Assembly (NCBI RefSeq): GCF_028201475.1
Contig: NZ_CP116383.1
Location: forward strand, 1,798,001 to 1,862,000
DNA length: 64,000 nucleotides
Reading direction: 5' to 3'
Origin: Vibrio sp. SCSIO 43137
GTDB taxonomy: Bacteria; Pseudomonadota; Gammaproteobacteria; Enterobacterales; Vibrionaceae
Shown here: piece by piece, positions 18,420 to 51,779 of the stretch
Position numbering within the stretch: the first letter of the stretch is position 1
How the letters are laid out: each line of letters opens with the position of its first letter
Program-made: the position numbers and the translations under genes
Notes under the pieces: generated by a model
Database searches by the model: none
The model's input: only the letters and a program-made list of their open reading frames with translations
Told to the model about the DNA's origin: nothing

Positions 18420-20147
18420 TTAATCAAACCAACCTCCTGTATCTCCAAAATCAAGCCCAAAGTCACCCATTTCAAGCTCATGGGTATCACCTTCAGCATA
18501 CGCAATGAAGTCTTCCAGTTCCTTATCAAGAGCCTCTGCCCTCATATCTGCTTCAATCTGAGCGGCATCAGCGTCCATCTGTTCGTTCCAGTAGGCCACT
18601 GCAATAGCCAAGGCATCGAGACGGTCATCGTGCTTCAGTGCTCCACGCTCTGCTGTGAGTCGGCCTAGCTGGTAGAACAGGCTGTAATAGACACGGCCTT
18701 GAGTAGTCTCCAAGTCTCTCTCGATAACCTTCGGGTCAACTACAAGACGATGCTGCATCATAACCGGTTCTAATGTGTCGATGATGCGTACCTCTTTCTG
18801 CTGGCTATGTCTCACCTCTTCCAGTTCTACCGGATAGATTCGAGTTAACCACGGCTTTAGGAGCTGACCGAACATACCATCACCGAAGTTCGACTCATAG
18901 ACCACCTTGTTCACCTTATGCTTCTTAGCGACCTCTGCCAGATGACGTAGGTTCTTATCAGCGTAGCCATCAAGTAGGCCTTCAGACTCCACTAGGTGAA
19001 TGTAGCCATTAAGGAAGTAAGTCACGTTATACGACATCTCATCCTTACCTCGACCACTAGGGTCAATAGCCATGAGACGGCCTGTGAAGCCTCTCATTGA
19101 GTCCGAGTACCACAGTGGGCGGTAATAGTAGTCGCCAGCCAAACCTAGCGCCTCAAGATCCCTCACGCGCTTGTCTGGGTCATTACACCATTCAAAGTGA
19201 GCGGGAGCGTTCGTACGGCCTACGTTATGGATAATCAGGTCGTGTAGCTTAAGGGGATACTTCTCAGCATCGCTTAACGCAGTATCAAGCATGAACTGCA
19301 ATGCGAAGCCAGCTTTACCATAGGATATCCGCCGCTCTGTTAGGTCAGCATCAGAGAAGCGTTTAGGGTCGGTAGTGTGGCCTATCAGTTTCTCATCCAG
19401 CTCGACTCGGCTCAGAATCAGCGGAGCTAGTCTAGAACGTCCATTGAAGACGTAAGCTGCTTGTTGTTGCTCTGTCGGGAAGATTGCAGGCCAGATACGA
19501 ATGAGGTAACCACGTTCTGCGAGGTTGTTGTACACGGTCATCTCAGTCTGAGGTGTTCCCAGATAGACGATGCGTGATGTATCTAGAGGCTTCAAGATAG
19601 CATCGAACTCTTTAACCAGTTCGCCTAGCTTATCCCTCGCATCCTGAGTAGCGGAGTTGTTCAGTACCTCCACGTCGTCGGCAATGATGATGTCCGCACG
19701 TGAGCCTGTTAGCTGACCATTAATACCTACAGACTTAAGAGAGGGAGAATGGTCGTTCACCGCAATAGCGACATCAAACACGTCGTTCCGGTCACGTCCA
19801 GTACCATTGGGTGCTAAGTGCTGAAGCACAGGCATGTCATGTAGTAGACGCTTCGTAAACTGGGAGAAGCTATCCGCACGTTCTTTAGAAGCCGATACCA
19901 CCATGATACGGCACTGAGGATCTCTGAGCCATTGCCACGCTACGAAGGCTGAGGTAATCCATGATTTACCAGCACCACGATAAGCCTGCACGATGATACG
20001 CTTACCACCATGCTGAAGGTAGTCTGCGATGTCATACTGACACTCTGTGGGTTCTGGTAGGTTAAGGTGCTTCCATGTTGCATAAAGGAAAAGCCGGAAG
20101 TCTGCTTTAAGTTGTTCTACGTACTTGTCTTGGGTTAGTTTCTGTAT
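18420..20147 (-). CDS. terL: Terminase large subunit (T7 gp19-like), ATA start
   Basis: 575 aa if started at ATA 20147, close to T7 gp19 (586 aa). Sequence from the first GTG (19991) begins inside the Walker A region (QAYRGAGKSW), losing about 50 residues; upstream in the same frame lies the expected T7-like N-terminus, ADFRLFLYATWKHLNLPEPT. No ATG/GTG/TTG occurs there. GAGGAG is 10 bases before the ATA. Other motifs: LTGSRADIIIADDVE (Walker B region), YLGTPQTEMT, AIDPSGRGKDEMSY and HDDRLDALA (nuclease). Packages DNA together with TerS and the portal. Last gene of the late operon. Confidence 0.95.
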   Translation of the reverse strand: MQKLTQDKYVEQLKADFRLFLYATWKHLNLPEPTECQYDIADYLQHGGKRIIVQAYRGAGKSWITSAFVAWQWLRDPQCRIMVVSASKERADSFSQFTKRLLHDMPVLQHLAPNGTGRDRNDVFDVAIAVNDHSPSLKSVGINGQLTGSRADIIIADDVEVLNNSATQDARDKLGELVKEFDAILKPLDTSRIVYLGTPQTEMTVYNNLAERGYLIRIWPAIFPTEQQQAAYVFNGRSRLAPLILSRVELDEKLIGHTTDPKRFSDADLTERRISYGKAGFALQFMLDTALSDAEKYPLKLHDLIIHNVGRTNAPAHFEWCNDPDKRVRDLEALGLAGDYYYRPLWYSDSMRGFTGRLMAIDPSGRGKDEMSYNVTYFLNGYIHLVESEGLLDGYADKNLRHLAEVAKKHKVNKVVYESNFGDGMFGQLLKPWLTRIYPVELEEVRHSQQKEVRIIDTLEPVMMQHRLVVDPKVIERDLETTQGRVYYSLFYQLGRLTAERGALKHDDRLDALAIAVAYWNEQMDADAAQIEADMRAEALDKELEDFIAYAEGDTHELEMGDFGLDFGDTGGWFD

Positions 20148-20181
20148 GTGATTGAGTCTCCTCTTAGATAGGCGCTAAGAA

Positions 20182-20203
20182 GCCCTCAGATCGTCTCTGA
20201 GAG
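20182..20203 (-). other. Intercistronic hairpin before terL
   Basis: Minus strand GCTCTCAGA-GACGA-TCTGAGGGC. No T run, so more likely an RNase III-type processing site than a terminator, as in T7 mRNAs. Confidence 0.35.
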
Positions 20204-20211
20204 CTTTAGGC

Positions 20212-20448
20212 TTAGTGTCGGAATGATGAGTCAGGTAGTGAGGAAACGTCAGGTAGAGTCTCCTCAAAGCCGTGAGCGGGATGCTCTGGCGCGTAGCCGA
20301 TTAGATGTCGGTTGTCGTTAAGGTAGGCGCGAGCCTGCGCTAGTTCTGCCGAGGTAGCTACGCCTGAACGCACCCTCTCCAACAGCTCTACAGCAAGCAT
20401 TTTGTCCATCTCTTCAACTATGTCTTTCTTAGACTTGTCGTCTGCGAT
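20212..20448 (-). CDS. terS: Terminase small subunit, ATC start
   Basis: 78 aa from ATC 20448; AGGAGG lies four bases upstream. The first in-frame ATG (20409) has no ribosome site and lies 13 codons in. Position immediately before terL and size fit T7 gp18 (89 aa). Helical, acidic, with LLERVRSGVATSAELAQARA. The identity comes mostly from position. Confidence 0.65.
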   Translation of the reverse strand: MADDKSKKDIVEEMDKMLAVELLERVRSGVATSAELAQARAYLNDNRHLIGYAPEHPAHGFEETLPDVSSLPDSSFRH

Positions 20449-20456
20449 AGTACCTC

Positions 20457-20705
20457 CTAGTTATTGTTACGGCCTCGGTTCTTGTTCCGAGACATGATTC
20501 GCAGGTTGGTAGTGGAGTTGTTCCCTTTACGGTTCGGGTTGTTCGCTACCTTGTGGTCAACATCCTTCCCTTCCACCGCCTTCTTACCGTGCTTTTTAAT
20601 CATCATGCGCCGAGCCTTATTACACTCGGAGCGTTTCTTGATGTTCTCTGGTCTAGCGTTGTACCGCTTCTGTCGAGCTGCTCGTTTCTGCGGGTCTTCT
20701 GCTAT
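20457..20705 (-). CDS. HNH endonuclease, ATA start in TAATA overlap
   Basis: 82 aa from ATA 20705, which shares its first A with the TAA stop of the previous gene; GGAG is eight bases upstream. The frame is closed by a TAA nine codons further up and has no ATG until 20606, where the domain would be cut. Basic N-terminus (KRAARQKRYNARPE), then the HNH core KDVDHKVANNPNRKGNNSTT and NLRIMSRN. HNH proteins next to terminase stimulate packaging or cleavage in many tailed phages; in T7-type phages they are also homing-like insertions. Confidence 0.78.
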   Translation of the reverse strand: MAEDPQKRAARQKRYNARPENIKKRSECNKARRMMIKKHGKKAVEGKDVDHKVANNPNRKGNNSTTNLRIMSRNKNRGRNNN

Positions 20706-20884
20706 TAGTACTTCTCCATGAAGCGTTTCTTAGCGTCAGCGACGATCTCATCATCTAGGCCGTTCTTAGTACTGGCCGCTAGCTTGGCTAACAGGCCGAA
20801 CACAAGTTTGCCGATAAGTTTCTCGCCGAAGAAGGCCATTAGTACGTTTAGGCCTACAGTTTTAAGAATGGTTAGTAATCCCAT
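20705..20884 (-). CDS. Small hydrophobic lysis-cassette protein, 59 aa
   Basis: ATG start with AGAGG upstream; overlaps the endolysin end by 13 bp. A hydrophobic N-terminal half (LLTILKTVGLNVLMAFFG...LVFGLLAKL) is followed by an acidic/basic tail (DDEIVADAKKRFMEKY). Between endolysin and terminase, where T7-type phages have holin or Rz genes. A holin or lysis accessory role is plausible but not proven. Confidence 0.6.
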   Translation of the reverse strand: MGLLTILKTVGLNVLMAFFGEKLIGKLVFGLLAKLAASTKNGLDDEIVADAKKRFMEKY

Positions 20885-21234
20885 GTTGAATACCTCTCTT
20901 GTCGTCTTAAGTCGATGTGTACGAAGTTCTTGGAGACGCCGAAGCCTTTAAAGCCTAGTGACGCTGCCAAGAGGATTAGTTTTAGTTGAGTTGGAAGCCC
21001 TGAACACTGAATGTCCACGGCAATACCTTGAGTGTGTCTGCCGATAGTGGTCTTTGAGCGTTCGTTCTTGTGGTTCTTACAGCGGTATGCTGAGGTGAGG
21101 TTAATAGGTCTACCCCAAAGCTCGCGCAGTAGGTCTAGCTTGTCGATAAGCTCCTGTGTGACACCGTGAGCGCCACAACAAGAGCAAGCCAGTTCGTGAG
21201 CCTTGAAGTATTTACCTTCAAGTGGTTTTGTCGT
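20872..21234 (-). CDS. M15-type endolysin, ACG start
   Basis: 120 aa. The protein is a VanY/L-Ala-D-Glu peptidase-like (M15) endolysin: zinc ligands in GRHTQGIAVDIQC (H-x6-D) and VHIDLR (H-x-D), substrate region SAYRCKNHK, N-terminal YFKAHELACSCCG. It cleaves peptide crosslinks of peptidoglycan. The frame has a TAA codon directly before ACG 21234 and no ATG, GTG or TTG ahead of the catalytic domain; AAGGAG lies seven bases before the ACG. ACG as start is therefore close to forced. Confidence 0.92.
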   Translation of the reverse strand, partial: TTKPLEGKYFKAHELACSCCGAHGVTQELIDKLDLLRELWGRPINLTSAYRCKNHKNERSKTTIGRHTQGIAVDIQCSGLPTQLKLILLAASLGFKGFGVSKNFVHIDLRRQERYSTWDY

Positions 21235-21238
21235 TTAG

Positions 21239-21457
21239 TTACTCCTTCTTTTTCATAAAGTAGTTTTCGATGATAGATAGACGCTTGTCCATCTTGTGAT
21301 TAAGTTCTACAAGTTGCTTTGTCTCGGCTCGCTGTTCTAATAGATACTTCTGGTTCACCTCAAGCGAAGTGATACGCCCTGAGAGACGCCATGAAGCACC
21401 TCCCAGTGCGAGTAGGACTGTAATAATGATGGCAATAATGCCGTCACGTAGATGGAT
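21239..21457 (-). CDS. Membrane/coiled-coil lysis protein, ATC start
   Basis: 72 aa. ATC 21457 shares its first A with the TAA stop of the fibre-assembly gene, with AAGGAGG four bases upstream. One N-terminal membrane helix (GIIAIIITVLLALGGASW) and then a long amphipathic coiled coil (RAETKQLVELNHKMDKRL). The design is that of an inner-membrane spanin (Rz-like) or a related phage membrane protein. No ATG/GTG/TTG precedes the membrane helix in frame. Confidence 0.75.
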   Translation of the reverse strand: MHLRDGIIAIIITVLLALGGASWRLSGRITSLEVNQKYLLEQRAETKQLVELNHKMDKRLSIIENYFMKKKE

Positions 21458-22365: not shown

Positions 22366-23673
22366 TTAAGCCTTCCTTACTATCCAGTTATATTTGATAT
22401 TCTTAATCGTATTCTCCTCATCCCCAAAGGCGTTAATCACTAGAGGATGGGTATGAGCACCTATGTCTACGTAATGGGAGTGCGCCCCTGTAGCATTCGT
22501 GTGCCAGTTTTTAGTACCTCCGAAACCGGGTGAACCCGCCGAGCCCTCAGTATTGTTCGCGTAGTGTCCTCGCCAGTGCGTCGTGTAATGTGAATGCTGC
22601 CCCGTTTCATTAGTATTCTTACGCCCTAAGTCCGTGCCACCCACAGCGCCCGAATGACTATGACTCTTGACGTGGTCTTCTTCATAGAACAGAACGGCTT
22701 CACCGTCCTTCTTACCTACAACCGCCTTACCTCGCATATCTGGGAGGAAATGGCTAGGGTATAGCTTAGCTAGGATAGGACAGAGTACAGGATCGAACGC
22801 CTGTCCCTTCATTATAAGCCACCCTTCAGGTGGTATATCTGAGGGATACGGGAGAGGCACGCCGTAGGGACATATAGCCTTCGCTACGTTGTCAATGTCG
22901 GCTATTGTCTTAGCACGCTCGGCTTCCGAGAAGGCACGCTCGGCTTCAGTTTTTGACCTGTCAGCTTCAGTTTTTGACCTGTCAGATGCTTTAACGGCTG
23001 CGGCTAATGTAGTAGCAGAGGCCTCTGTAACGGCTGCGGCTGCGCGGTCAGCTTCGGTCTTTGATTTAGCAGCTTCAGTCTTTGACCTGTCAGCTTCAGT
23101 CTTTGATTTAGCAGCTTCAGTCTTTGACCTGTCAGCTTCAGTCTTTGACCTGTCAGCTTCAGTCTTTGACCTGTCAGCTTCAGTCTTTGACCTGTCTAGT
23201 TGCTTGTCAGAGTACCCTTTTGTAACAGCGTCCTTTGGATTTAAGGGTTCACCGAGGTTAGACAGGCGCTTACCGAGGGCGTCTAGCGAGCCGTCAGCCC
23301 CGTTCTTCACGGTATCCAGCGCGTTATCGTAGGCCTCTTGCATAGCATAGAACACCTGATTAGCCGACCTGTCTAGATCCAGCTCCGTAAGCTCCGCTGC
23401 ATTGACGAAGTCCACAGCGCGTGCTTTGAGATTAGTATCTCTCCTAATGGTCACCTGAGCAGGCTCATTGAGAGGGGTTACGAGCCTGATTAACCCTTGG
23501 TGGCTGAAAGTGTATTCTGTGATGTACGTTAAAGGACGTTCGTTTATTAAGACCTTTACCGACTCTTTGTCTTCATAACGGAAGGGGATGGGGAACTCTT
23601 GCGAGCCTGTCGTGCCTTTGTAATGGACACGTGATAGATACGCTAGTTCAGCGTTTGTTTGTGTTTCGGTTAT
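22366..23673 (-). CDS. Tail fibre, T7 gp17-type N-terminus, ATA start
   Basis: 435 aa from ATA 23673. AGGAG lies six bases upstream and a TAG stands three codons before it in frame, so no other start can include the N-terminus. The first ~90 residues (GSQEFPIPFRYEDKESVKVL, then LTYITEYTFSHQGLIRL) match the T7 gp17 tail-attachment domain; a GTG at 23454 would delete most of it. Next comes a coiled coil of SKTEADR heptads encoded by 21-bp repeats, a collar-like region (PPEGWLIMKGQAFDP), and a C-terminal receptor part with several HxH pairs (SHSHSG, QHSHYT, AHSHYV, AHTHPL) like iron-binding phage fibre tips. Confidence 0.9.
   Translation of the reverse strand: MTETQTNAELAYLSRVHYKGTTGSQEFPIPFRYEDKESVKVLINERPLTYITEYTFSHQGLIRLVTPLNEPAQVTIRRDTNLKARAVDFVNAAELTELDLDRSANQVFYAMQEAYDNALDTVKNGADGSLDALGKRLSNLGEPLNPKDAVTKGYSDKQLDRSKTEADRSKTEADRSKTEADRSKTEAAKSKTEADRSKTEAAKSKTEADRAAAAVTEASATTLAAAVKASDRSKTEADRSKTEAERAFSEAERAKTIADIDNVAKAICPYGVPLPYPSDIPPEGWLIMKGQAFDPVLCPILAKLYPSHFLPDMRGKAVVGKKDGEAVLFYEEDHVKSHSHSGAVGGTDLGRKNTNETGQHSHYTTHWRGHYANNTEGSAGSPGFGGTKNWHTNATGAHSHYVDIGAHTHPLVINAFGDEENTIKNIKYNWIVRKA
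22951..23206 (-). repeat. 21-bp tandem repeats in fibre gene
   Basis: About ten near-identical 21-bp units encoding SKTEADR or SKTEAAK, interrupted near 22990-23050 by an Ala/Thr-rich stretch. Two units differ by a silent change (TTTTTGACC versus TCTTTGACC). Confidence 0.85.
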
Positions 23674-27335: not shown

Positions 27336-29365
27336 TTAGTCTCCATTGCATGTTTAGCTCGCTGTACATAAGGGTCTTGCTGGAAGTTCGCTCGGTCAGT
27401 GTCACGGCCACGTAGAAGGGCATTCATGTGGTCATCATCAAGCTGCTTCTGGGTCTTCCACTTGGCCTTGTTATGAGTGTCGATAAGCTCTTTCATGTCG
27501 ATCTCTTTACCTACCATCGAACCTTCGTCATAGATAACCCACCGGAAGAAGTCGCTTGGGTCAACCTCAATGACAGCATCGTCCATCTCAAACCCACTCG
27601 CCTCGGCGTAGGTCTCTAAGACTTCATCAATGGCTTCAGTAGGGTTACCTGAGAACTGACCTGCGTATTGCAAGGCGTGACCTGCATTGAACACCCGCCC
27701 TGAGTCGAACTCTGTGAAGTCAAGACCACGCGTCTGCGCTAATAACTGCCCTGCACGTCCGACCGTTGGTGCGCCCAGGATTGTCATTTCGACTAGCCCT
27801 TTGTTCTGTCGCAGGAAAGTATTCACCTCATCGGTGCTTAGGTCGGTCTCTTTCTTCATGGCTGATATAAGCTCTGAACGCTCTTGACGTGTGATGTCTG
27901 TACCAGCTCGCTTGCTCTTAGCTTCCTCATAACGCTTCTTCACCTGCACAAAGCTGGCTGAGGCTTCAGGGTCACCGTAGCGTGAGTTAGTGAAGGCATC
28001 ATAAAGACGCCACTCGTTATAACGCTCCTCGCCTAAGATGGCCTTAGCTTTAGGTTGACCGACGTTCATCGCGAGTGTAGCTGCCGTGGCTGCGGCTGAA
28101 GCGTACCGAGGATTTAACTCTCCGGCATCTGTGAGAGGTGACTCATTCAGTCCTTGGAAGAGGGTCGCTGTGAAGCGAGGTACTTTATGGTCACCGTTCG
28201 TTCCATAGACGTAATCCATGACTCGTACCATTGCACCCTTTTCCATAACAGGAACGTTCTGGTCATTGTATTGAATCAGACTAACTAGCTTCTCGTCGGC
28301 GGCCTTAAGCTGAGCGGCGGTGAAATCACTAGCATCCTTCAATAGGTTACCTGACGTTAGAGCCGTGTAGACGTGACTCTCCTTGGTCTTCTTAGCATAC
28401 TGCTCGTGTGCTTTAGTCATGAAACCACGCTGCTGGTCAACGGTATAGAAGCCTTCAGGTAACTGCTTAAGGTATTCGCCTAGAGCCTCTACCTTACCGC
28501 TCTTGATGAAGTTCTCTTCAAGATAAGCCGTGGAGTCAATACTGAGGGATTGAAGCGCGTTGATGTTTGCCTTGCGGAAGCCTTCCTCATACTTAGCTGA
28601 CGTGTTATTGAAGCTCTCGTTTAGTGAGCCTAAGTCAGTCTTCTTCAGGTAAGCGTATAGATTCTCTACCTGTTTGAAGTCCGCATTAGTCATGTTATCA
28701 AAGGCATCCTCAAAGCCATCGACAAGCGTACCCGCTACATCATCACGAGTAGCTGACATTAGCGTAGAGTTATTGAGGAACTGGTCTAGAGTATCTGGCT
28801 CAAGCGCACCTTCAAGAACACCATTGAGCGCGTCCGAGGTCTCACCTAAGTGGGTACTCTTCTGCTTCTCCATGAACTTCTGACCGTCTTCCTCTGCCCA
28901 CCCCTGATACATACCAGCGATAACAGTACGGCTAAACTCCCCAAGCTCATCAGGGTCTTGCGAGTACCCCTTAATGATGCTCTGTGACGTCTCGTCGCTC
29001 TGTAACCAAGCTAACCGCTCCTCGGCGCTAAGGTCGAAGAGAGCTGCTGCATTCTTACCTAAGTGAGCCTTCAGTCTTGTCTCTGTGAACTTTGAGCGTT
29101 CCTCCATCTGCTTCACGTACTGCGTCTGAGCGTTAGCGTCTGCACGTTTATCAGCATCATACTGAGCGAGTTGCATCCGGTTAACACCCTCATTAACAGT
29201 ACTCAGCGTCTTAGTTATTGCACTAGCTTGACGCTCCCCTTGACGTGCTTTCTGAAGTGTCGCCGTGTTCCCTCGCATCTGAGGTGTGAACTGGTTGACA
29301 GGCATTGAAGGTGTAAGCACGTTCTCAAAGTTAGGCTTTAGCTGTACACGTTCTCGTCTACTCAT
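27332..29365 (-). CDS. Internal virion protein, gp15-like
   Basis: 677 aa, mostly helical and charged, starting in a TAATG overlap with the gp14-like gene. Size and order (gp13, gp14, gp15, gp16) match T7, where gp15 (747 aa) is an ejectosome tube component. Opening segment ENVLTPSMPVNQFTPQMRG is typical of this protein in T7-type phages. Confidence 0.8.
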   Translation of the reverse strand: MSRRERVQLKPNFENVLTPSMPVNQFTPQMRGNTATLQKARQGERQASAITKTLSTVNEGVNRMQLAQYDADKRADANAQTQYVKQMEERSKFTETRLKAHLGKNAAALFDLSAEERLAWLQSDETSQSIIKGYSQDPDELGEFSRTVIAGMYQGWAEEDGQKFMEKQKSTHLGETSDALNGVLEGALEPDTLDQFLNNSTLMSATRDDVAGTLVDGFEDAFDNMTNADFKQVENLYAYLKKTDLGSLNESFNNTSAKYEEGFRKANINALQSLSIDSTAYLEENFIKSGKVEALGEYLKQLPEGFYTVDQQRGFMTKAHEQYAKKTKESHVYTALTSGNLLKDASDFTAAQLKAADEKLVSLIQYNDQNVPVMEKGAMVRVMDYVYGTNGDHKVPRFTATLFQGLNESPLTDAGELNPRYASAAATAATLAMNVGQPKAKAILGEERYNEWRLYDAFTNSRYGDPEASASFVQVKKRYEEAKSKRAGTDITRQERSELISAMKKETDLSTDEVNTFLRQNKGLVEMTILGAPTVGRAGQLLAQTRGLDFTEFDSGRVFNAGHALQYAGQFSGNPTEAIDEVLETYAEASGFEMDDAVIEVDPSDFFRWVIYDEGSMVGKEIDMKELIDTHNKAKWKTQKQLDDDHMNALLRGRDTDRANFQQDPYVQRAKHAMETK

Positions 29366-29928
29366 TAGTTACCTCCTATACGAGCTGCTGTGTTTACGTT
29401 AGTGCTTGTCGGCTTAGGTGTTGTAGTACCAGCCTTGAGCGTAGACTCACTGGACGCATAGATAGACGCTGCGCTCATGACGGGCGAGATGATGTCTACT
29501 GACGTGTCTTGGGTCTGTTGTTTGATACTTGAACCTGTACCCCATTGGTTTGCATTAACCTGACTAGCGGTCTGAGCGCGAGTGGCCTCAAGGTTATCCT
29601 GAATGGTGGCAAGGTTACGGGACATCTCGGTCGAGAAGTCACCTATGATTGCGTCTACGCTGTTACCTCCACCGCCTGCATCTGCTGCGGCTGCTTTGGC
29701 TGCGCTTTGCGCCTGAGCTGATTGAATCCGTGTGTTCAGCTTCTTGTCTGCGTAAGCGTCCTCCATTGACGCTAGTTGCTGGTTTAGTCCTCGGTTCTTG
29801 TACATAAGACCAATGACATTGTTATCGCGCATCTGCTCGTTATACTCTTCGGCTGCTTCCGAGGCTTGCATACTCTGATACATGCCGACCACGAACGTCG
29901 CTGCTGCGAAGGCTATTCCTATAGCTAT
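29365..29928 (-). CDS. Internal virion protein, gp14-like, ATA start
   Basis: 187 aa from ATA 29928, with AGGAGG five bases upstream (T7 gp14: 196 aa). The first twelve residues after the ATA (AIGIAFAAATFVV) restore the hydrophobic N-terminus expected for gp14, which forms the outer-membrane part of the T7 ejectosome; starting at GTG 29892 would remove it and leave no ribosome site. Ala/Gln-rich helical middle and a Thr/Ser-rich tail. Confidence 0.8.
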   Translation of the reverse strand: MAIGIAFAAATFVVGMYQSMQASEAAEEYNEQMRDNNVIGLMYKNRGLNQQLASMEDAYADKKLNTRIQSAQAQSAAKAAAADAGGGGNSVDAIIGDFSTEMSRNLATIQDNLEATRAQTASQVNANQWGTGSSIKQQTQDTSVDIISPVMSAASIYASSESTLKAGTTTPKPTSTNVNTAARIGGN

Positions 29929-33801: not shown

Positions 33802-34878
33802 TTAAGCCGCTAGGTCAATGACCTCAACGTCGTTAGCTGCTGTTGCTGCTTTAGAGCCAGTTAGGACAACCGCCACCGCACAAGACGGGCGTAGGATGTC
33901 GTGACCGACACAAAGCTTAGATAGAATAGTTGTTCCCAAGCGTAATGGTTCGTCTACAGAGCGAGTCTGAACGTCCATTAGCTTAGTAGTTGCCACACAG
34001 TCAGGCGTGAAGATTAGAGCCACTAGGCCTTCACCTTGCACACGATACTTAGCTTGATTACCTGAACCCACAGCTACATCAGCTAGAGGCTCTGGGTCGC
34101 CCTTCAGCTTCAGGGTCTCGTCTTGCATTGGTAGATGGTTTGATTCCACTAGGGAGATACCAGCCACACGAGCAATAGAGCCTTCAGAAGTTGAACCTGA
34201 ACCACCCACGTCTTTGTTCATCCAAGTCACCTTAGTGGTGTCCTGAACGTTGATTAGCGTCTCGTAATGTTCTGGCGGCAACACACAGATAGGCATCTGC
34301 TTGATGTTTGCTTTCTTGAACAGGGTACGAGCCTTGAAGATAGATGCCACGATGTGAGCACCATCAGCCTTAGCAATAGAGATGTTCTTAGTGAACTCTT
34401 CGCCTTCCAGTACGGTTAGACCTGCTGCGCCTGCCTTGGTAGCATTCGTCAGGTAAGCCGCTTTAGCGACCATACGGAAGATGTTACGGTCAACTAGCTC
34501 AGCCAGTGCAACACCACCTTCAGTTGAGTACTGAGAGCGGAAGTCGTAATGGTTCATCGCCTCATCGATATCCGCAATGAATACCGGAGATACAGCAACG
34601 TCATCGATAGTCACTACGCGCTCTGCGTGTGCAATCTTGTTACCTTCGATTAGCGTACCCGGAGTGTGATACTTCGCACCGTTACGGCCAATCATAGGGA
34701 ATGAGGCTGACTTGCCGTTCTTAATGGTACGAACGCGAGTTAGACCTAGTGCTAGGTTATCTGCCTTGAAGGTCGTTAGGACTTCGCCTGCGAACAGCTT
34801 CAGGAACATTTGACGTGAATTGCCAGCCTTGTTTACTTGACCGACGCGAGATACTACTTGTTGAGTTGGGAATGTAAT
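33802..34878 (-). CDS. Major capsid protein (gp10-like), ATT start
   Basis: 358 aa from ATT 34878 (T7 gp10A: 345 aa). A TAG stands five codons before the ATT and no ATG/GTG/TTG lies between it and ATG 34809, which has no ribosome site and would cut the N-arm. AAGGA is ten bases before the ATT. Family segments: MFLKLFAGEVLTTF, GKSASFPMIGRNGAKYHTPG, FIADIDEAMNHYDFRSQY. The most abundant virion protein using ATT is remarkable. Followed by the T-phi-like terminator; preceded by scaffold. Confidence 0.93.
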   Translation of the reverse strand: MTFPTQQVVSRVGQVNKAGNSRQMFLKLFAGEVLTTFKADNLALGLTRVRTIKNGKSASFPMIGRNGAKYHTPGTLIEGNKIAHAERVVTIDDVAVSPVFIADIDEAMNHYDFRSQYSTEGGVALAELVDRNIFRMVAKAAYLTNATKAGAAGLTVLEGEEFTKNISIAKADGAHIVASIFKARTLFKKANIKQMPICVLPPEHYETLINVQDTTKVTWMNKDVGGSGSTSEGSIARVAGISLVESNHLPMQDETLKLKGDPEPLADVAVGSGNQAKYRVQGEGLVALIFTPDCVATTKLMDVQTRSVDEPLRLGTTILSKLCVGHDILRPSCAVAVVLTGSKAATAANDVEVIDLAA

Positions 34879-35587: not shown

Positions 35588-37096
35588 CTATTGTTGGCCT
35601 TGAGCCATTTGAAGTAATTGACCGCCGTTCTGCTGTGCGAACTGGGTGGCCTGTTGTTGTTGAGCGAACGCCGCCTTCTCCTCTTCAGTACGCATCAGAC
35701 CATCTGTCTCGATTTGCAGTGAAGCGGCGTAGCGTTTGAATAGTTCGCCTAAGTTCATCTCACTTTCGGCCTTGTCTGCGCCTACCTGCTGGATTAGCCC
35801 AACAAAGGTATTAAGTCGCTGAAGGTCGGCTGAGCGTCCAATACCCTCTACACCAGTAATGACGATTGGAGTAAAGGTCTCTTCTTTAAAGTGAGGTAGC
35901 GTTCCGTCTCTCTCCATGTGGCCGAGAAGAACGTGAACAAGTGGTAGCTGTAAGCTCTGAGCTAACTGGCTGTACATACCTCCCAGACCTTCTTCTAGCA
36001 TCTGCGAGATAGCTCGAATCTCTTCGGCTGTCACACGTTCTGCATCTCGCCTCACGGCGCTGGTCATTAGGAAGGCTTCAGATAGAGCCTGATTAATCTC
36101 ATTGCGTAGCTGTTGCGCCATCGCTAAGTCATGCGCTTTGTCCAACTGAAGGCATCCGATATCATCTGGATTACCTTGAAGGAAGTCACCATTCTTAGCT
36201 TTAGCTAGTTTGGTCGCTCTGGTCGAGCTATTAGGCTTAACCAAGAATAGAACCTTAGAGGCGGCTACTGAGGCCTGAGTAATTGCCTTTACGAGTGACT
36301 CCAAGGTATTGAGGTCGCCTAAGTGCTCCTCACAGAATGAGCGTCCGTAGTCTTCACCGTCGAGACGGCTTAGAGCTGACACAATGTAAGGACAACGGTC
36401 TTTACGGTAGCGTCCTTTTGACTTTGGAAGGACAATACCTTCGCACTCTTGGTGTTCGTACCATGTGTTCCCTCGAAGCTCTACTACCGTGTAGACTGTC
36501 ACGTCCTTACGGGGAGCTGTCTTAAGGTTCTTACGTTCGACCACCTGAGCCTGTGTCTTGTCATCAAGGCGCTTAAAGTTAACCTTCTCACAGATAATGA
36601 GCTTGATTACCTCGCCTTCGTTATCACGCATCACGACATACTTGTCCAGACGGTAGAAACGGACTGACTTAGTGCCTATCTTCAGGACACCGTTTCCGGT
36701 CACTAGTAGGTGCTTGACCACCTCAAAGAGATGAGAACGTAGGGCTCGTCGCTCCATGTTCTGCACAATAGCGCCTTCTGTCTGAGATAGTGCCTTCTCC
36801 AAGTCGCTCGCTTGGTCGTCTGTGATATCCCCACTGACCATGTCTTCAGGAATCATAAGGCGAACAAACGGATGTGACGGAGGGAAGAGGCCTGTCACTA
36901 TCTTCGAAGCTAATTGTTTAACTGCTCTTGCTCCGAAGCCTGAGTAAGGGACGGCGAACTGAGTGTTCTCATCCTGCCCTTCTTCAGGTAAAAGTGAAGG
37001 GATAGTTAGACCTGCGCATAAACGGCCTCTTGTGAGGTACGGGTCACGCTCGGTCTTTAATCGGGTGTATAGCTGCTGAGTAGGGCTCTGGCTTAT
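35588..37096 (-). CDS. Portal (head-tail connector, gp8-like), ATA start
   Basis: 502 aa from ATA 37096 (T7 gp8: 536 aa). ATA shares its first A with the TAA stop of the previous gene and has AGGAGG six bases upstream. The stretch it adds over GTG 36898 matches T7 gp8: LYTRLKTERDPYLTRGR, then LTIPSLLPEE and GARAVKQLASKIVTGLFPPS. Later segments: DGEDYGRSFCEEHLGDLNTL, AVRRDAERVTAEEIRAISQM. Forms the dodecameric ring for DNA packaging and ejection. Translational coupling to the preceding small gene is likely. Confidence 0.96.
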   Translation of the reverse strand: MSQSPTQQLYTRLKTERDPYLTRGRLCAGLTIPSLLPEEGQDENTQFAVPYSGFGARAVKQLASKIVTGLFPPSHPFVRLMIPEDMVSGDITDDQASDLEKALSQTEGAIVQNMERRALRSHLFEVVKHLLVTGNGVLKIGTKSVRFYRLDKYVVMRDNEGEVIKLIICEKVNFKRLDDKTQAQVVERKNLKTAPRKDVTVYTVVELRGNTWYEHQECEGIVLPKSKGRYRKDRCPYIVSALSRLDGEDYGRSFCEEHLGDLNTLESLVKAITQASVAASKVLFLVKPNSSTRATKLAKAKNGDFLQGNPDDIGCLQLDKAHDLAMAQQLRNEINQALSEAFLMTSAVRRDAERVTAEEIRAISQMLEEGLGGMYSQLAQSLQLPLVHVLLGHMERDGTLPHFKEETFTPIVITGVEGIGRSADLQRLNTFVGLIQQVGADKAESEMNLGELFKRYAASLQIETDGLMRTEEEKAAFAQQQQATQFAQQNGGQLLQMAQGQQ

Positions 37097-38613: not shown

Positions 38614-38798
38614 TAGAAGTACCCCATGAACGCACCGATAGGAGGGAAGACCATCCCTACGACACGTATTAACTCATCGACGCCACCAGTATCAGCGAGC
38701 GCCTTGTAGATATTCATTACATACCCGCCGATAGCTAGCAGGGCAATAAGTACGTAGGCAATGATTGCAAAGCCTATATAGTTCTCTTTTTTAATCAT
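38613..38798 (-). CDS. Two-helix membrane protein, 61 aa
   Basis: Two hydrophobic segments (GFAIIAYVLIALLAIGGYV and VGMVFPPIGAFMGYF) with a short loop, between nrdD and nrdG and overlapping the nrdD end by 8 bp. Holin-like topology, but far from the endolysin. Function unknown. Confidence 0.55.
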   Translation of the reverse strand: MIKKENYIGFAIIAYVLIALLAIGGYVMNIYKALADTGGVDELIRVVGMVFPPIGAFMGYF

Positions 38799-40635
38799 GA
38801 TGTTTAACTCGGTTGATTACTTCCGTCTGCTTACCTTCGATGTAAGGACGGTTATTAGGAGATCCCAGATAACCACACACTCGACGTGTGACACTGAGGG
38901 TCTTAGGGTTAGTGTTCCCGCATTTAGGACACTGGAAGCCTTTGGGCGTGGCTAGTGCTTCACCTGAATGGTCACACTCACCGCAGTAGTCCACAGGGGT
39001 GTTAGTACCAAAGTAAGGCAGTCGGCTGTACGTGTAGTCCCAGACATGCTCTAAACCCTTAAGGTTGTTCTTCATGTTGGGGAACTCGACGTATGAGATA
39101 AAGCCGCCATTCGCCCATGTCGGGTAATCCATCTCGAAGTGAACCTTCTCTTTAGGACTAACCTTCATGCGTACATCGAGGTGAAAGCTATTGGTGTAGT
39201 AACCATGGTCGGTCACACCTTTAACGATACCGAAGCGTTCTCGGTCAAGACGACAGAACCTGTCACATAGTGACTCGCTTGGAGTGCTATAGAGGCCGAA
39301 GCCGAAGCCTGTCTCCTTCTTCCAGTTATCACAATGCTCTCGGAGTACCTGCACAATCTTCTTAGCGAAGACCTGAAGCAGCTCTGAGCTTGCGATGTCG
39401 GAGTCTGGGAATAGAGCCTTGACGGTCTCCTCAATGCCGATATAGCCGAGAGAGATTGTAGCCCTGCCGTTACGCATGATATCCAACACTTCGTCTTCAG
39501 GGTTCAAGCGGACACCGCAAGCGCCTTCGACGTATAGGATTGGAGCTACTTTAGCCTTAATACCTTCAAGCCGCTTAATGCGGGTCATCAAGGCCTCTTT
39601 AGCTAATGCTGCTCGGTCATCCAAGAGTTGCCAGAACTTATAGGCATTACCCTCAGCTTCCAGCGCGATACGTGGTAGGTTCAGGGACACGACGCCCATG
39701 TTATTGCGTCCGTCAATCTCACCTGAAGCTACTTCGCTAAGGAAAGACCGACATCCCATTGGAGTCTTAAAGCCTCCCGTGACCTCGACCACTTTCTCGT
39801 AGTTGAGTATGTCAGGGTACATTCGTTGAGAGGCGCAAGTGAGAGCCAGCTTCTTAATGTCATAGTTACAGTCTCCCGCACGGCGGTTAACTCCTTCCTT
39901 GACAACGAAGACGAGCTTAGGGAACACCGCAGTACGTTTCCTCTTGCCGAGGCCTGCAAGTCTAACTCGTAGGATCGACTCTTGTATAAGACGTGCTTCC
40001 CATGAAGTGCCGAGACCAAAGCCCAAGGTAGTGAATGGAGTTTGCCCGTTCGCCGTATGAAGGGTGTTGATTTCATATTCAAGAGCTTGGAATGCGTCAT
40101 AAGTTTCCTTCTCGGTCATCTTGGTCGCATATACAGAAGCCTTCCGCTCATCCTTCAGCCATACCATACCTGTCTGCAAGTGCTTGTCGTAAGACTTACG
40201 GACGTAGGGAGCTAGTACCTCATCGATACGGTTCACTGTGTTACCGCCATAGATATGCGAGGCAACCTGAGCGATTATTTGAGCCGTGATAGCGGTAGCT
40301 GTTGAGATGGACTTAGGGGTTTCAATCTCTGCGCCGCCCATACTGAACCCACGCTCAAGCATCCCTTTAACGTCTATCAACATGCAGTTGAACATCGCAA
40401 AGAGCGGAGCATAATCAAGGTCGTGGTAGTGGATGTCACCGGAGCGGTGAGCTTCTGATATGTTCTTGGGGAGAATCTGAGTGAGTGCTAGGTGCTTGGA
40501 CACCTCGCCTGCCACCATGTCACGCTGAGTAGGGATACGCTCGGAAGCCTTATTCGCATTACTATGCATTAGCTCCTTGTTCGCCGTGCCTCCTACAATG
40601 CCGTAGATGGTGTCGAATAGTTGGTTATGTTTCGT
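38791..40635 (-). CDS. nrdD: Anaerobic ribonucleoside-triphosphate reductase NrdD, ACG start
   Basis: 614 aa from ACG 40635, like T4 NrdD (605 aa), without the N-terminal ATP-cone of cellular enzymes. GGAGG lies six bases before the ACG. Upstream of the first ATG (40569) the frame still encodes family sequence (QLFDTIYGIVGGTANKELM before HSNANKASERIPTQRD), so ATG 40569 is internal. Zinc site CGECDHSGE...CPKCGN and glycyl-radical loop RRVCGYLGSP are intact. Makes dNTPs without oxygen. The first 11 bases overlap the previous gene. Confidence 0.95.
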   Translation of the reverse strand, partial: TKHNQLFDTIYGIVGGTANKELMHSNANKASERIPTQRDMVAGEVSKHLALTQILPKNISEAHRSGDIHYHDLDYAPLFAMFNCMLIDVKGMLERGFSMGGAEIETPKSISTATAITAQIIAQVASHIYGGNTVNRIDEVLAPYVRKSYDKHLQTGMVWLKDERKASVYATKMTEKETYDAFQALEYEINTLHTANGQTPFTTLGFGLGTSWEARLIQESILRVRLAGLGKRKRTAVFPKLVFVVKEGVNRRAGDCNYDIKKLALTCASQRMYPDILNYEKVVEVTGGFKTPMGCRSFLSEVASGEIDGRNNMGVVSLNLPRIALEAEGNAYKFWQLLDDRAALAKEALMTRIKRLEGIKAKVAPILYVEGACGVRLNPEDEVLDIMRNGRATISLGYIGIEETVKALFPDSDIASSELLQVFAKKIVQVLREHCDNWKKETGFGFGLYSTPSESLCDRFCRLDRERFGIVKGVTDHGYYTNSFHLDVRMKVSPKEKVHFEMDYPTWANGGFISYVEFPNMKNNLKGLEHVWDYTYSRLPYFGTNTPVDYCGECDHSGEALATPKGFQCPKCGNTNPKTLSVTRRVCGYLGSPNNRPYIEGKQTEVINRVKHHD

Positions 40636-41774: not shown

Positions 41775-42093
41775 GAGTACTTTCTCTGGGTTAGTTCTTT
41801 GATAGTGCGGCGGCATTCGATATGACCTTCACCAAGGCCATACCTGCGATTACCTTCTACACAGAGCTGTGCGAAGGTTGGTTCTTTTTTAGGGAGGCGG
41901 TGACCTTGAAGAGGCTTTCGGTCTTCTCAAGACTGTCGCCGTTCGCTAGTGCTATACGTATCCGTTTAGGTGTCTCCCGTACCTCGGTGATAGTTGTACG
42001 GTCAAGACAAGGCCTTCCACCGCGACGGATGCGTCCGGCCACTATGACCTCATCTCCTACGGATAGCTCATTACCAAGGAAGTCTTTAGGCAT
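41771..42093 (-). CDS. Small KOW-like protein with probable -1 frameshift extension
   Basis: Zero frame: 42093-41857, 78 aa, starts ATG with GGAGA upstream; beta-rich (FLGNELSVGDEVIVAGRIRR), KOW/SH3-like. At codons CTA AAA AAG (41892-41884) the heptamer A-AAA-AAG is the dnaX-type slippery site. Five bases later comes a two-part stem (ACCTTC/GAAGGT outside, CACAG/CTGTG inside, 41878-41852). A -1 shift gives a 107-aa product ending EPTFAQLCVEGNRRYGLG...ECRRTIKELTQRKYS, whose TGA overlaps the ATG of the radical SAM gene. Both forms may be made. Confidence 0.65.
41852..41892 (-). promoter_or_regulatory. Programmed -1 frameshift signal
   Basis: Slippery A-AAA-AAG in the zero frame, 5-nt spacer, then a stem-loop with outer 6-bp and inner 5-bp stems. 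Layout as in dnaX of E. coli. Confidence 0.65.
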
Positions 42094-46763: not shown

Positions 46764-46815
46764 ATTGATTACCTTTAGTTGGTTGGTTATTTAAGTCTTC
46801 TTTCGATTGGCTCTG

Positions 46816-46853: not shown

Positions 46854-46935
46854 AAAAGGAGAGTGAGCAATTAGATATGACTCAGAACGAATCGAAAGAA
46901 GCCCTCGGACAACTTAAAGTCATCCGAAGGTTGTT

Positions 46936-46953
46936 CTTATAGGTGGCCTTAAA
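46936..46953 (-). promoter_or_regulatory. Phage RNA polymerase promoter c
   Basis: Minus strand TTTAAGGCCACCTATAAG, just after the DNA polymerase gene, driving the 104-aa gene, ligase, exonuclease and SPFH block. Confidence 0.8.
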
Positions 46954-46956
46954 ACC

Positions 46957-49017: not shown

Positions 49018-50691
49018 TTAAAATGAATCTCCTGACTGGTCTTGGAAAGGACACTCATCGCCTGCCTCACTTCGTTCTGAATAGATACCTTTAGCGGTGC
49101 AGTAAGCCATAGGCACAACGAGGCCGAGTGAGTTACCTGTGAAGCGGTCTTTAAGGACACGTACGTAGGTAGTGGTTCGCTCTGTCTCATCATCAGCTTG
49201 CTGGTCTCGCTCAAGACCTATCATGAAGTAAGCCCAGAAGCCGATTGCTCGTGAACCTTTGAATTGACGGATGGTGACTCGTCCACCTTCTTCATGGGAC
49301 TTGCCCATCTGTGGAGTTGTCAGGTGTGATATAACGATGAGTATGACTTTACGTTGCTTAGCGAACTCAGCCATCTCAGCGGTGATACGTTCAAGTTCGG
49401 CCTTCTCGTCCTTCTCGTCCACACCTGTAGCCAGTGCGGTTAGATGGTCGATGTAGAACACCTTCGTACCCATAGCGGCCTGATAAGCCATACGAGCCTT
49501 AACAGCATCCCAATCCGACATCCCGAAGGAATCAAAGAGGTCAATCTTGTCTGTGGCCTCAAGAGCGTCGAAAGCTTCTTCGTACTCTTGCTCTGTCCAG
49601 TAGCCCTCATCGCCTTCTTCCATAGGAACGTGAAAACGTTTAAGCCTGTGTTTACCCATGAGACGTTGAGCTGTCTCTACGACATCCTGCTCCATGAAGA
49701 AGCCTGATACCTTTAGGTCTAACTCGGCGACGTCGTATTCCATCTGCTGCGTCAAAAAGTCAGTCTTACCGACACCCGTCCCCGCACCTACCACAATGAC
49801 GTCACCTTCGCGGCGTCCGTAGGTCTTAGCGGTTAGAGATGGAAGAAACCATGCGTAGCCGGGTTCGGGAGTCTTGCGCTCCATAACACGTGAACGTAGG
49901 TCTCGCAGGGAGACCATGCCTTCAGGTTTATAAGCTTCTGCATTCCAGATGGACTTAACCAGCTCATCCGTACAGCCGCCTAAAAGCATGTCGTTCGGGT
50001 CTTTCATCGATAGACGGGCTATCTTGATGTTAACCACGCCCATTAGAGCTTCAGCGGCCTTACGCCCTGCTTCTCGGCCTTGGTCGTCCATGTCGAAACA
50101 CAGCACAACCTCATCGAATAACTTAAGGAAGTCGATACAGCCTAGAAGGTTACGCTTGGCACTCTGTACGCCATTGGGTAGTGAAACTACCGGATACTTA
50201 TTGCCCTGAACTTGGGAGACGGTCAGCATGTCAATCTCACCTTCAGTAACGACAAGACGCCTACCGCCTGACCATAGGTGCATCCCTATGAGACAAGCTT
50301 TAGGGATCTTCCCGTTAACCGAGAAGTGCTTATCACGGAAGCGTATCTTCTGTGCGACAAGCTTGTTCTCTTCGTCTCTTACGTTACAGATGTGCGCCTT
50401 CTCCATGCGCTCACTGCCGGAGTGCCATGCCTCGCCTAACACGTAACCGAACTTACGGCATGTCTCCTCGGTAATGCCTCGTGCTTTGAGAGCCTGAAGT
50501 TCACCACTGATAGGAGTGAAGTCGATGGGTTTAGCGGCTGCTTGGTCACCTGAAGGAGTGCCACCCCTTACTTTCTCGCAGGAGTAGCAAAAGGTGTGAC
50601 CGTCAGAGTATTCAGCTAGAGCGTCAGAAGAACCACAGTCGTCACAAGGAAGCCCTCGTGCGATTAATACTGATTCATCATGTTCACTCAC
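49018..50691 (-). CDS. Primase-helicase (T7 gp4-like)
   Basis: 557 aa (T7: 566). N-terminal zinc finger CDDCGSSDALAEYSDGHTFC, TOPRIM primase (VVTEGEIDMLTV, CFDMDDQGREAGRKAAEAL), then RecA-type hexameric helicase with Walker A GAGTGVGKTD and YIDHLTAL. ATG overlaps the stop of the preceding gene (ATGA). Confidence 0.96.
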   Translation of the reverse strand: MSEHDESVLIARGLPCDDCGSSDALAEYSDGHTFCYSCEKVRGGTPSGDQAAAKPIDFTPISGELQALKARGITEETCRKFGYVLGEAWHSGSERMEKAHICNVRDEENKLVAQKIRFRDKHFSVNGKIPKACLIGMHLWSGGRRLVVTEGEIDMLTVSQVQGNKYPVVSLPNGVQSAKRNLLGCIDFLKLFDEVVLCFDMDDQGREAGRKAAEALMGVVNIKIARLSMKDPNDMLLGGCTDELVKSIWNAEAYKPEGMVSLRDLRSRVMERKTPEPGYAWFLPSLTAKTYGRREGDVIVVGAGTGVGKTDFLTQQMEYDVAELDLKVSGFFMEQDVVETAQRLMGKHRLKRFHVPMEEGDEGYWTEQEYEEAFDALEATDKIDLFDSFGMSDWDAVKARMAYQAAMGTKVFYIDHLTALATGVDEKDEKAELERITAEMAEFAKQRKVILIVISHLTTPQMGKSHEEGGRVTIRQFKGSRAIGFWAYFMIGLERDQQADDETERTTTYVRVLKDRFTGNSLGLVVPMAYCTAKGIYSERSEAGDECPFQDQSGDSF

Positions 50692-51038
50692 TTGTAGACG
50701 GCCACCTCACGCTGTAATACAACGTTCTTAACCATCTGCTCGTACTTGGTATTGATTTCAAGACGTTTACGCCAGTTGTACACACCGTGTAGCTCGGCGA
50801 CCTGTGCGGCCTTGAGTACAGCGATGCGCGATTCAAAGTCAGGTACGTAGCGGACATAGCCGTCAACTCGTTTACCGTTGTTACCTTGCTTCAGCGCGTG
50901 GTGGGTGTCTTTAAGGGCATAAGCGATAGCACTCATGCGGGTGATGCCTAGTTCATAGGCTGCGATATGGGCATCGACGTACCCATGACGGTTAACGTAA
51001 TTGATGACCGCCTCTTGTTGTGTAGTGGATGTTTTCAT
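50688..51038 (-). CDS. Hypothetical HTH-like protein, 116 aa
   Basis: First gene after promoter d. N-terminal helix-turn-helix-like segment (YVDAHIAAYELGITRMSAIA), then a basic domain (WRKRLEINTKYEQMVKN). Cotranscribed with primase-helicase. Not recognised. Confidence 0.55.
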   Translation of the reverse strand: MKTSTTQQEAVINYVNRHGYVDAHIAAYELGITRMSAIAYALKDTHHALKQGNNGKRVDGYVRYVPDFESRIAVLKAAQVAELHGVYNWRKRLEINTKYEQMVKNVVLQREVAVYK

Positions 51039-51064
51039 TCTATAGAATCCTCGTGTTGTTGAAT

Positions 51065-51084
51065 CCTATAGGTGGCCTTTAATC
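51065..51084 (-). promoter_or_regulatory. Phage RNA polymerase promoter d
   Basis: Minus strand GATTAAAGGCCACCTATAGG, overlapping the end of the lysozyme-like gene; one base longer before the GGCCACC core than the others. Confidence 0.75.
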
Positions 51085-51432
51085 CAGATAGACGATGGAA
51101 GCGTCGGGATATAAGGCTTCGAGCGAATCCAATGTACGCTCTAGGGTGGTTACCTGTTCCTCGGTCATGGTGTCAGGACTCGATACAACCTGCACAAAGA
51201 TGGACTCATCTAGTACTGTGGTGTCCTCTACATCTACGTTGCCGTAGACCTCAAGGTCGTTTAAGTCGAGCACCGAACCGTCGCGCCGAACGAGGATATG
51301 AGCACCGTAGCCACGGACGCATCGCTGCCTGTCCATTGCCATGATGTCGAAATCACTCAGATCTTCACGTCCAGTGTCGGTATAAATGACCGCAATGTAG
51401 GAAGTAGCTTTTCTTTTAAGAAGTTTCGCCAT
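51079..51432 (-). CDS. Degenerate T7 lysozyme (gp3.5) homologue
   Basis: 117 aa versus 151 in T7. It aligns along its length: MAKLLKRKATSYIAVIYTDT with T7 MARVQFKQRESTDAIFVHCS, and GAHILVRRDGSV with GYHFIIKRDGTV. The zinc ligand His17 is lost, Tyr46 is Ala, and the protein stops at YPDASIVYLD, just where T7 has His122, Lys128 and Cys130. It therefore cannot be an amidase. T7 lysozyme also binds and inhibits T7 RNA polymerase; this homologue probably keeps only that regulatory role. Cell-wall lysis is taken over by the M15 endolysin. Overlaps RusA by 76 bp. Confidence 0.75.
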   Translation of the reverse strand: MAKLLKRKATSYIAVIYTDTGREDLSDFDIMAMDRQRCVRGYGAHILVRRDGSVLDLNDLEVYGNVDVEDTTVLDESIFVQVVSSPDTMTEEQVTTLERTLDSLEALYPDASIVYLD

Positions 51433-51779
51433 TTACTTTCCTCTAGTTCTGTTATCTTGATGGTTAAACCCTCCTGCCCTCTTGGAACTAATACTTTGTA
51501 TAACTTCAGGACATAGACGAACTTGTCATCGAACTTGTAACGCTTTTGAAGGACGTCAAGCATTGATTTAGCTGCATTGTCTAGGTCTGAGGCTTTATTG
51601 GAGTAACGCACTATCGCTCGGACGGATAGCTTAGTCTCTTTAGGGATGGTTATGTCAGGAAGACCGCGAGCGACCTGCATCTCCCACCGACGGTATGCCG
51701 ATGATTTGACCTTGCGGCCTTGATACATGTCGTTCGCGCTCATTGGTTTAACATCAATGTTGATGTCATGCTGAGTGAT
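51357..51779 (-). CDS. RusA-type Holliday junction resolvase, ATC start
   Basis: 140 aa from ATC 51779. The ATC shares its A with the TAA stop of SSB (TAATC) and AGGAAGG lies upstream. The added N-terminus (THDINIDVKPMSANDMYQG-like, minus the first residues) supplies the first beta strand of RusA, which is missing if ATG 51743 is used. Acidic catalytic pattern NKASDLDNAAKSMLDVLQKR and DDKFVYVLKLYK. Replaces T7 endonuclease I (gp3) at the same map position. Resolves branched replicating DNA before packaging. Confidence 0.82.
   Translation of the reverse strand: MTQHDINIDVKPMSANDMYQGRKVKSSAYRRWEMQVARGLPDITIPKETKLSVRAIVRYSNKASDLDNAAKSMLDVLQKRYKFDDKFVYVLKLYKVLVPRGQEGLTIKITELEESKWRNFLKEKLLPTLRSFIPTLDVKI

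Follow-up and report, generated by a model that had tools for sequence, protein, structure and literature searches.

Single non-canonical start codons are already known. According to an excerpt of PMC5472188, initiation factor 3 (IF3) represses such starts as a regulatory device in infC and in Streptomyces sigR. Excerpts of two further papers report that excess IF3 lowers re-initiation and blocks M13 propagation (PMC2268962), and that phage phiYS40 lowers IF3, with T7 gp0.7 listed in the same review as acting on IF1-3 (PMC3594737). Here we compare with these systems a 64,000-nucleotide stretch of Vibrio sp. SCSIO 43137 (NZ_CP116383.1, positions 1,798,001 to 1,862,000; the window, meaning the whole stretch analysed), in which an integrated T7-like temperate phage of ~45 kb sits between the tRNA-Leu and tRNA-Cys genes. 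An earlier note on this DNA had proposed that eleven genes of the phage start with ATA, ATC, ATT or ACG, codons normally rejected by IF3; that rejection is established in the excerpted part of PMC5472188. On sequence comparison these near-cognate codons are very likely the real starts. The trait, as the note had not seen, is common to several related phages, is commonest in late genes and is not found in the early/integrase arm.

Results

Near-cognate codons at the N-termini of eleven phage genes

We compared the window phage with several relatives. G691 and G693 are close to it (TerL 78-79% identical) and are, we infer, phages of Vibrio parahaemolyticus, the source of named proteins of matching identity. 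pVPan1 of Vibrio panuliri (NZ_AP019656.1) is a 47.9-kb circular plasmid with a T7 module; G692 is a 28.3-kb prophage record whose host, Salinivibrio kushneri, is taken from the identical TerL P0004; G100 is an IMG/VR record with a TerL almost identical to that of Candidatus Enterovibrio escacola, and is partly degenerate, its RNA polymerase (RNAP) being in pieces.

The codon named by the earlier note was read at 11/11 coordinates, all on the minus strand; only ATA, ATC, ATT and ACG occur, and all eleven keep the first A, as it had said. Most scans offered CTG too but not AAG or AGG, and the absence of the latter two carries no meaning. The genes are:

51357..51779, minus strand: RusA-like resolvase; ATC at 51779, overlapping the ssb stop (TAATC)
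38791..40635, minus strand: NrdD; ACG at 40635
35588..37096, minus strand: portal (head-tail adaptor); ATA at 37096, overlapping the upstream stop (TAATA)
33802..34878, minus strand: major capsid protein; ATT at 34878
29365..29928, minus strand: gp14-like internal virion protein; ATA at 29928
22366..23673, minus strand: tail fibre; ATA at 23673, with ATA at the same codon in the Salinivibrio prophage
21239..21457, minus strand: 72-aa Rz-like lysis protein; ATC at 21457, overlapping the upstream stop (TAATC)
20872..21234, minus strand: endolysin (M15 peptidase); ACG at 21234, directly behind an in-frame stop
20457..20705, minus strand: "HNH" protein (the earlier note's label; no match in a Pfam search); ATA at 20705, overlapping the upstream stop
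20212..20448, minus strand: small terminase subunit (TerS; Pfam DNA_Packaging_2 match below cut-off); ATC at 20448
18420..20147, minus strand: large terminase subunit (TerL); ATA at 20147

The claim that no ATG, GTG or TTG can give the full protein held throughout, since 0/11 genes have such a codon between the upstream in-frame stop and the near-cognate codon. In seven of the eleven this stop is five codons away or less (endolysin 0; gp14, fibre and lysis 3; TerS and NrdD 4; capsid 5), and the measured 0, 3 and 5 agree with the 0-5 codons claimed for endolysin, fibre and capsid. The first canonical codon stands 12-73 codons downstream, and starting there costs 12-73 residues. Conserved coding ahead of that codon, also claimed before, was recovered: with the window compared to G691 for ten genes and to G100 for one (lysis), pooled synonymous divergence (pS) was 0.77 versus a nonsynonymous value (pN) of 0.29. 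A pS so far above pN indicates that these stretches are translated. Two protein records of the window genome already begin, as M, at the near-cognate codon: the portal (P0143, ATA 37096) and TerL (P0001, ATA 20147).

Ten of the eleven genes have a homolog in G691/G693; lysis has none. In G691, 9/10 homologs have ATG, GTG or TTG near the aligned start (offsets: portal -1, capsid 0, gp14 0, fibre -5, endolysin +2, HNH 0, TerS -1, TerL -1, NrdD -12), and a pairwise coding comparison of the portal gives TTG at the identical codon. The remaining gene, RusA, shares 10/11 upstream residues with G691, and its aligned codon is ATA in both G691 and G693. At the capsid start the window has ATT, pVPan1 ATA and G691 ATG, the opening reading ATT-ACA-TTC-CCA in the window versus ATA-ACA-TTT-CCA in pVPan1. 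The HNH start is ATA also in G100 and Salinivibrio and ATG in G691 and G693; the TerS homologs of G100 and Salinivibrio are read as ATA, as are the lysis homologs of pVPan1 and Salinivibrio. The NrdD homolog of G693 has ATG one codon upstream. In G693, too, the nine homologs other than RusA have a standard codon near the aligned start; for its TerL and fibre a near-cognate codon scores as high or almost so, and its nrdG showed no standard codon within the scanned range. The exchange also runs the other way, gp13 and gp15 having ATG in the window and ATA in Salinivibrio.

Duplex energies of the Shine-Dalgarno sequences (SDs) of the eleven genes range from -4.8 (RusA) to -12.0 (lysis). Their mean of -8.6 marks them as stronger than the SDs of 29 canonical genes in the module (mean -5.9, p 0.008), but they overlap the range of eight late canonical genes of the same phage (-4.2 to -11.5). 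We rejected SD-anchored start calling as evidence: when starts were picked by SD only over all codons, near-cognate picks numbered 6/51 in the window, 7/53 in pVPan1, 7/51 in T7, 1/38 in G691 and 0/53 in RHEph01, so that T7 scores like pVPan1. This test being too noisy, we base the case on homology, reading frame and coding constraint rather than on SDs. Its weakest members are RusA by SD, lysis by conservation (7/32 upstream residues identical) and NrdD by alignment. Comparative evidence places non-canonical starts at the true N-termini, and near-cognate initiation is the simplest reading of the genes.

Related phages share the trait

The earlier note had proposed aligning related phages to see whether these positions are ATG or near-cognate elsewhere; this gave standard codons in virulent and some temperate relatives, and ATA or ATC in three other phages. 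pVPan1 carries 15 near-cognate starts as read (14 ATA and one ATC), 15/15 having no standard codon upstream in frame and 8/15 a stop within five codons. Ten are backed by homology to window proteins: capsid, tubeA, tubeB, fibre, TerL, primase, polymerase, exonuclease, lysis and TerS. The other five (5525, 6171, 38381, 45185 and 45703) rest on frame, position and SD only, and the SD at 45703 is weak (-3.7). The gp16 frame probably adds a further ATA start outside the 15. The PLSDB annotation of pVPan1 itself puts a few starts at ATA or ATT. The plasmid (L104, 1-47925) has the appearance of a phage-plasmid of T7 type and carries a ParM gene and sugar-metabolism cargo.

The Salinivibrio prophage uses near-cognate codons in 12/15 late genes examined (ten ATA, two ATC); in the other three, gp16 has ATG, the portal has GTG at the record edge and the scaffold is ambiguous. 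Nine of the 12 have no standard codon upstream in frame, and 4/12 have a stop within five codons. Less certain are tubeA, gp14 and TerS (standard codon upstream), tubeB (CTG equally placed), and TerL, an 80-aa protein and lysis (standard codon 7-14 codons downstream, with little conserved sequence before it). Repeating the divergence test gave a pS of 0.74 versus a pN of 0.39 for the 12 Salinivibrio genes, a pool dominated by gp13 (142/333 residues), and 0.86 versus 0.42 for eight pVPan1 genes. Two ORFs, pVPan1 TerS and Salinivibrio gp13, have no in-frame ATG, GTG or TTG at all. In G100, ATA was read for endolysin, HNH, TerS and fibre, and TerL probably starts at ATC.

Other T7-type phages use standard starts

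A table of 26 window genes, filled in for six control phages (T7, ICP3, VP4, VP93, RHEph01 and a Marinobacter prophage), gave standard codons in 54/56 scored cells; the two exceptions, T7 exonuclease and RHEph01 ssb, were picked automatically and are annotated with ATG. Near-cognate codons in the same table numbered 11/26 in the window, 10/14 in pVPan1 (ssb pick doubtful), 6/10 in G100 (gp16 pick weak) and 1/24 in G691. RHEph01 has an integrase yet standard starts, so temperate life alone does not explain the trait.

Homolog scans dropped alignments beginning after residue 15 before counting and counted overlapping loci of one record separately. Over fetched loci, the capsid scan gave 77 canonical, 2 with none (both pVPan1) and 1 truncated (n=80); tubeA 74 canonical and 2 none (pVPan1; n=76); portal 59 canonical and 3 none (three copies of one relic; n=62); endolysin 8 canonical and 2 none (G100; n=10). 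TerL gave 89 canonical, including G100 TerL scored at a TTG at -7 though read as ATC, and 10 none (n=99): three copies of pVPan1, a single Enterovibrio-type relic in four copies, two loci whose ATG lies just beyond the scanned range and one distant match. A portal query against viral_contigs gave no confirmed matches.

In ICP3 (L269), 2/54 annotated starts lie outside ATG, GTG and TTG, at 16092 and 38680. The ssb at ATA has GTG one codon upstream behind a strong SD, and a small gene at ATT has ATG two codons downstream; both annotations are probably misplaced.

Near-cognate starts concentrate in late genes

Pooled over the window and pVPan1, near-cognate starts were found in 20/31 late genes (virion, lysis, packaging) versus 0/35 genes of the integrase/early arm (Fisher p 2e-9), on gene lists that we drew up ourselves, leaving out gp16 and the integrase of pVPan1. 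Separately, the window has 9/17 late versus 2/23 middle (p 0.003) and 0/11 early-arm genes, and pVPan1 11/14 late versus 0/24 early-arm genes; the late-versus-early Fisher p values are 0.004 and 3e-7. For the early arm, including the 24 pVPan1 genes, we used either the annotated start or the first ATG-class codon. Seven of the 11 in the window were checked against G691: five have ATG before all aligned sequence, and in two (11957, 12206) the alignment runs slightly past the standard start.

The prophage and its layout

An integrase together with an attachment-site duplication at a tRNA gene identifies the element as a temperate prophage, and its own single-subunit RNAP together with T7-type portal, capsid and TerL as T7-like (Autographivirus-type). 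The attachment-site repeats, 28 bases and 93% alike, lie in and beside tRNA-Leu sequence. The prophage carries integrase, T7-type RNAP, primase, polymerase, exonuclease and anaerobic ribonucleotide reductase genes, and its T7 virion module runs from portal to TerL.

10700..10727: attachment-site repeat at one prophage end, inside the tRNA-Leu gene
10819..11964, minus strand: integrase, start ATG; marks the end of the early/lysogeny arm, where we called no near-cognate start
52563..55325, minus strand: T7-type RNAP, start ATG
55595..55622: partner attachment-site repeat at the other prophage end

The motif AAGGCCACCTATARG recurs on the minus strand at 55356, 52496, 51065, 46936, 37485, 35587 and 18326, with 0-2 mismatches each; at up to 3 mismatches it has 14 matches versus 2.5 expected. 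It is probably the promoter of the phage RNAP. Operator-like palindromes of the type CTCACATGTGAG, in divergent copies, lie at 12141, 16111, 17039, 17328, 52528 and 55455, near the RNAP, ssb and early-arm genes. The early arm also holds a DndB-family protein (12858-14276), with homologs in pVPan1 and G691/G693, and near it ArdA-like (16149-17030) and ParE-like (11957-12154) genes. A radical SAM protein (40950-41816), present in G693 too, adjoins the NrdD and NrdG genes. The tail fibre gene contains ten overlapping repeat copies (22897-23211), mostly 21 bases apart, and a 116-aa gene ahead of the primase (50688-51038) has a helix-turn-helix look in alignment, its pVPan1 homolog being annotated so.

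Host IF3 and candidate phage factors

The host has one IF3 gene, whose frame reads GGAGG-AATAA-ACT-ATT, so that infC probably starts at ATT as in E. coli. Its IF3 is ordinary: 6/178 columns depart from a consensus built on 20 same-genus sequences (30 loci, 20 of them usable), and two of these six residues occur in none of the other 19 (Q to A, where the site is variable, and I to V). We judged a host with relaxed IF3 unlikely on this unremarkable sequence. No phage tRNA was found in the window prophage, pVPan1, the Salinivibrio record, G691 or G693, and the G100 record has one tRNA-Pro; altered decoding by a phage initiator-like tRNA was likewise judged unlikely, as no such tRNA turned up. Antisense and nested frames aside, the only genes common to the near-cognate phages and missing from G691/G693 encode the 72-aa lysis protein and an adjoining 80-aa membrane-type protein. 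We considered this pair as a shared factor and judged them lineage-specific lysis genes.

Descent

A TerL tree unites the window, G691/G693, Salinivibrio, G100 and two metagenome proteins (support 100/99). Within that group G691/G693, which have standard codons, are sister to the window (100/98); pVPan1 lies elsewhere. If the two N-truncated metagenome proteins are near-cognate as well, a simple history would make near-cognate use the ancestral state of the group, given up once when the V. parahaemolyticus branch went back to ATG, with pVPan1 having acquired it separately. The ATA of RusA kept in G691 and G693 fits a return to ATG.

Discussion

In the mechanism that we propose, fMet-tRNA would initiate at AUA, AUC, AUU or ACG in a large share of the late genes and in a few genes of replication, both in the window phage and in related phages of Vibrio, Salinivibrio and Enterovibrio. 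IF3 would discriminate against these codons, leaving late mRNAs poorly translated in the lysogen or in early infection; the lytic cycle would then relax this discrimination and open the late set together. Host infC, with its GGAGG and ATT codon, would work by the same logic. With an ordinary host IF3 and no phage tRNA, the reading that we favour is that start-codon discrimination gates the late genes until the lytic cycle relaxes it. Taken as a whole, near-cognate late starts behind an IF3 gate have about an even chance of being the right explanation; for IF3-dependent gating as the function of the codons our confidence falls slightly short of even. A more ambitious version, in which the late regulon lies behind IF3-discriminated codons, initiation fidelity is the switch for lysis-lysogeny or for late timing, which a phage factor or the host's IF3 status would throw, and the V. 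parahaemolyticus branch reverted to ATG, is possible but doubtful. In four of the eleven genes (RusA, portal, lysis, HNH) the start overlaps the preceding gene's stop, so translational coupling may help those four.

Several observations weigh against this proposal. The late set is uneven: in the window, ATG or TTG serves the scaffold, both tail tube proteins, gp13, gp15, gp16 and the fibre-assembly gene, and in G100 either codon can serve lysis, gp13, gp14 and gp15. The V. parahaemolyticus-type phages are almost devoid of the trait, which is therefore not essential. The four proven-case labels need four changes on the TerL tree and 500/500 shuffles need as few, so the trait is not clustered there. 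No IF3 antagonist or kinase gene was recognised among the phage genes, several small ones of which have no match. The gating itself draws on knowledge from E. coli and Streptomyces.

We rank gating first among the readings, drift under relaxed initiation second and brute-force transcription third. Drift supposes that ribosomes in the lytic cycle lose start discrimination, through the phage or physiologically, and that late codons then change neutrally with no gate intended, G-to-A transitions making ATA the commonest; we think it unlikely. It is consistent with codons that differ between relatives at the same gene, with the dominance of ATA in pVPan1 (14/15 starts) and with an early arm, expressed before any relaxation, that has no called near-cognate start. 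The SD scores of portal, capsid, HNH, endolysin and TerL are near those of their standard-codon homologs in G691, so five of the ten show no compensation, but those of gp14, TerS and NrdD are clearly stronger in the window, and those of fibre and RusA slightly so. Drift also requires a fidelity-lowering event for which no gene was found, and 12/15 near-cognate late genes in Salinivibrio exceed what drift would give with ATG as an equal option. Were fidelity instead unchanged, the RNAP might make so much late mRNA that a few per cent of initiation suffices, poor codons only damping leakage in the lysogen. A T7-type RNAP and the repeated promoter-like AAGGCCACCTATARG suit this account, but the capsid, needed most, has ATT in the window and ATA in pVPan1 and Salinivibrio (SD energies -5.7, -8.7 and -7.4). 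That so abundant a protein has a near-cognate start in three phages speaks against poor initiation there at the time it counts, and we regard sheer transcription as distinctly improbable.

Two further alternatives would dispense with near-cognate starts as a working feature. Translation might begin at downstream ATG, GTG or TTG codons, or enter by frameshift from the upstream gene, as could be read from the window genome's own capsid record (P0084, 335 aa), which begins at a downstream ATG, and from the four starts that overlap an upstream stop. Conserved N-termini would then be lost, however, the two ORFs that lack any standard codon could not be served, and the starts of capsid, fibre and TerL are each preceded by a spacer, with SDs and in-frame stops; this is very improbable. 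That a dying prophage has simply lost its start codons seems the least probable of all. Some relatives are indeed relics, such as G100 with its broken RNAP, and the TerL copies of Candidatus Enterovibrio escacola and of G288, which are probably one organism, are partial or interrupted. The eleven window ORFs are nevertheless open and under purifying selection, random loss would not hit eleven start codons by single changes while sparing the frames, and the trait recurs in relatives with open frames. No frame-breaking changes were noticed in the window module, though it was not searched systematically for broken genes.

Proteins of this kind are cut short or overlooked by gene finders. The predicted capsids P0084, P0086, P0087 and P0088 lack the conserved N-terminus, as do, among protein records of further relatives, TerL P0003 and P0005; the gaps in P0003, P0005, P0087 and P0088 are what one would predict had such starts been missed. 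The PLSDB gene table, incomplete by its own description, has no entry for the pVPan1 TerS frame. More broadly, our comparison suggests that the T7-like phages of marine Vibrio-type bacteria that show the trait either gate or loosen translation start in the host. The use, on a genome scale, of codons that bacteria reject would mean that phages can target start-codon discrimination for regulation, and would offer a natural system for asking how initiation fidelity changes during infection.

Among the matches listed in open-licence PMC (titles and abstract openings, with subscription papers and preprints outside), none described a phage with many near-cognate starts. Precedent for phages altering IF3 comes from phiYS40, listed as lowering it, and from T7 gp0.7, listed as acting on IF1-3 (both in the excerpted PMC3594737); no such factor was recognised here. 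RHEph01 and the Marinobacter similis prophage resemble the window phage in their T7 module, and RHEph01 in its integrase too, but they use standard starts (13/14 automatic calls in RHEph01, the other having an annotated ATG, and 4/4 in the Marinobacter similis prophage). The GTC start of Streptomyces sigR, a non-canonical start acting as an IF3-dependent brake in the excerpt of PMC5472188, is similar in principle, but concerns a single gene, has G as its first base and involves no phage. The same excerpt describes the AUU start and autoregulation of infC, which matches the phage genes in its near-cognate codon of the IF3-rejected class, its first A and its strong SD. There, homeostatic feedback acts on one host gene; here, such codons occur in many genes of a single replicon, most of them for virion or lysis proteins, and what stands out is the scale of their use and its place in late genes.

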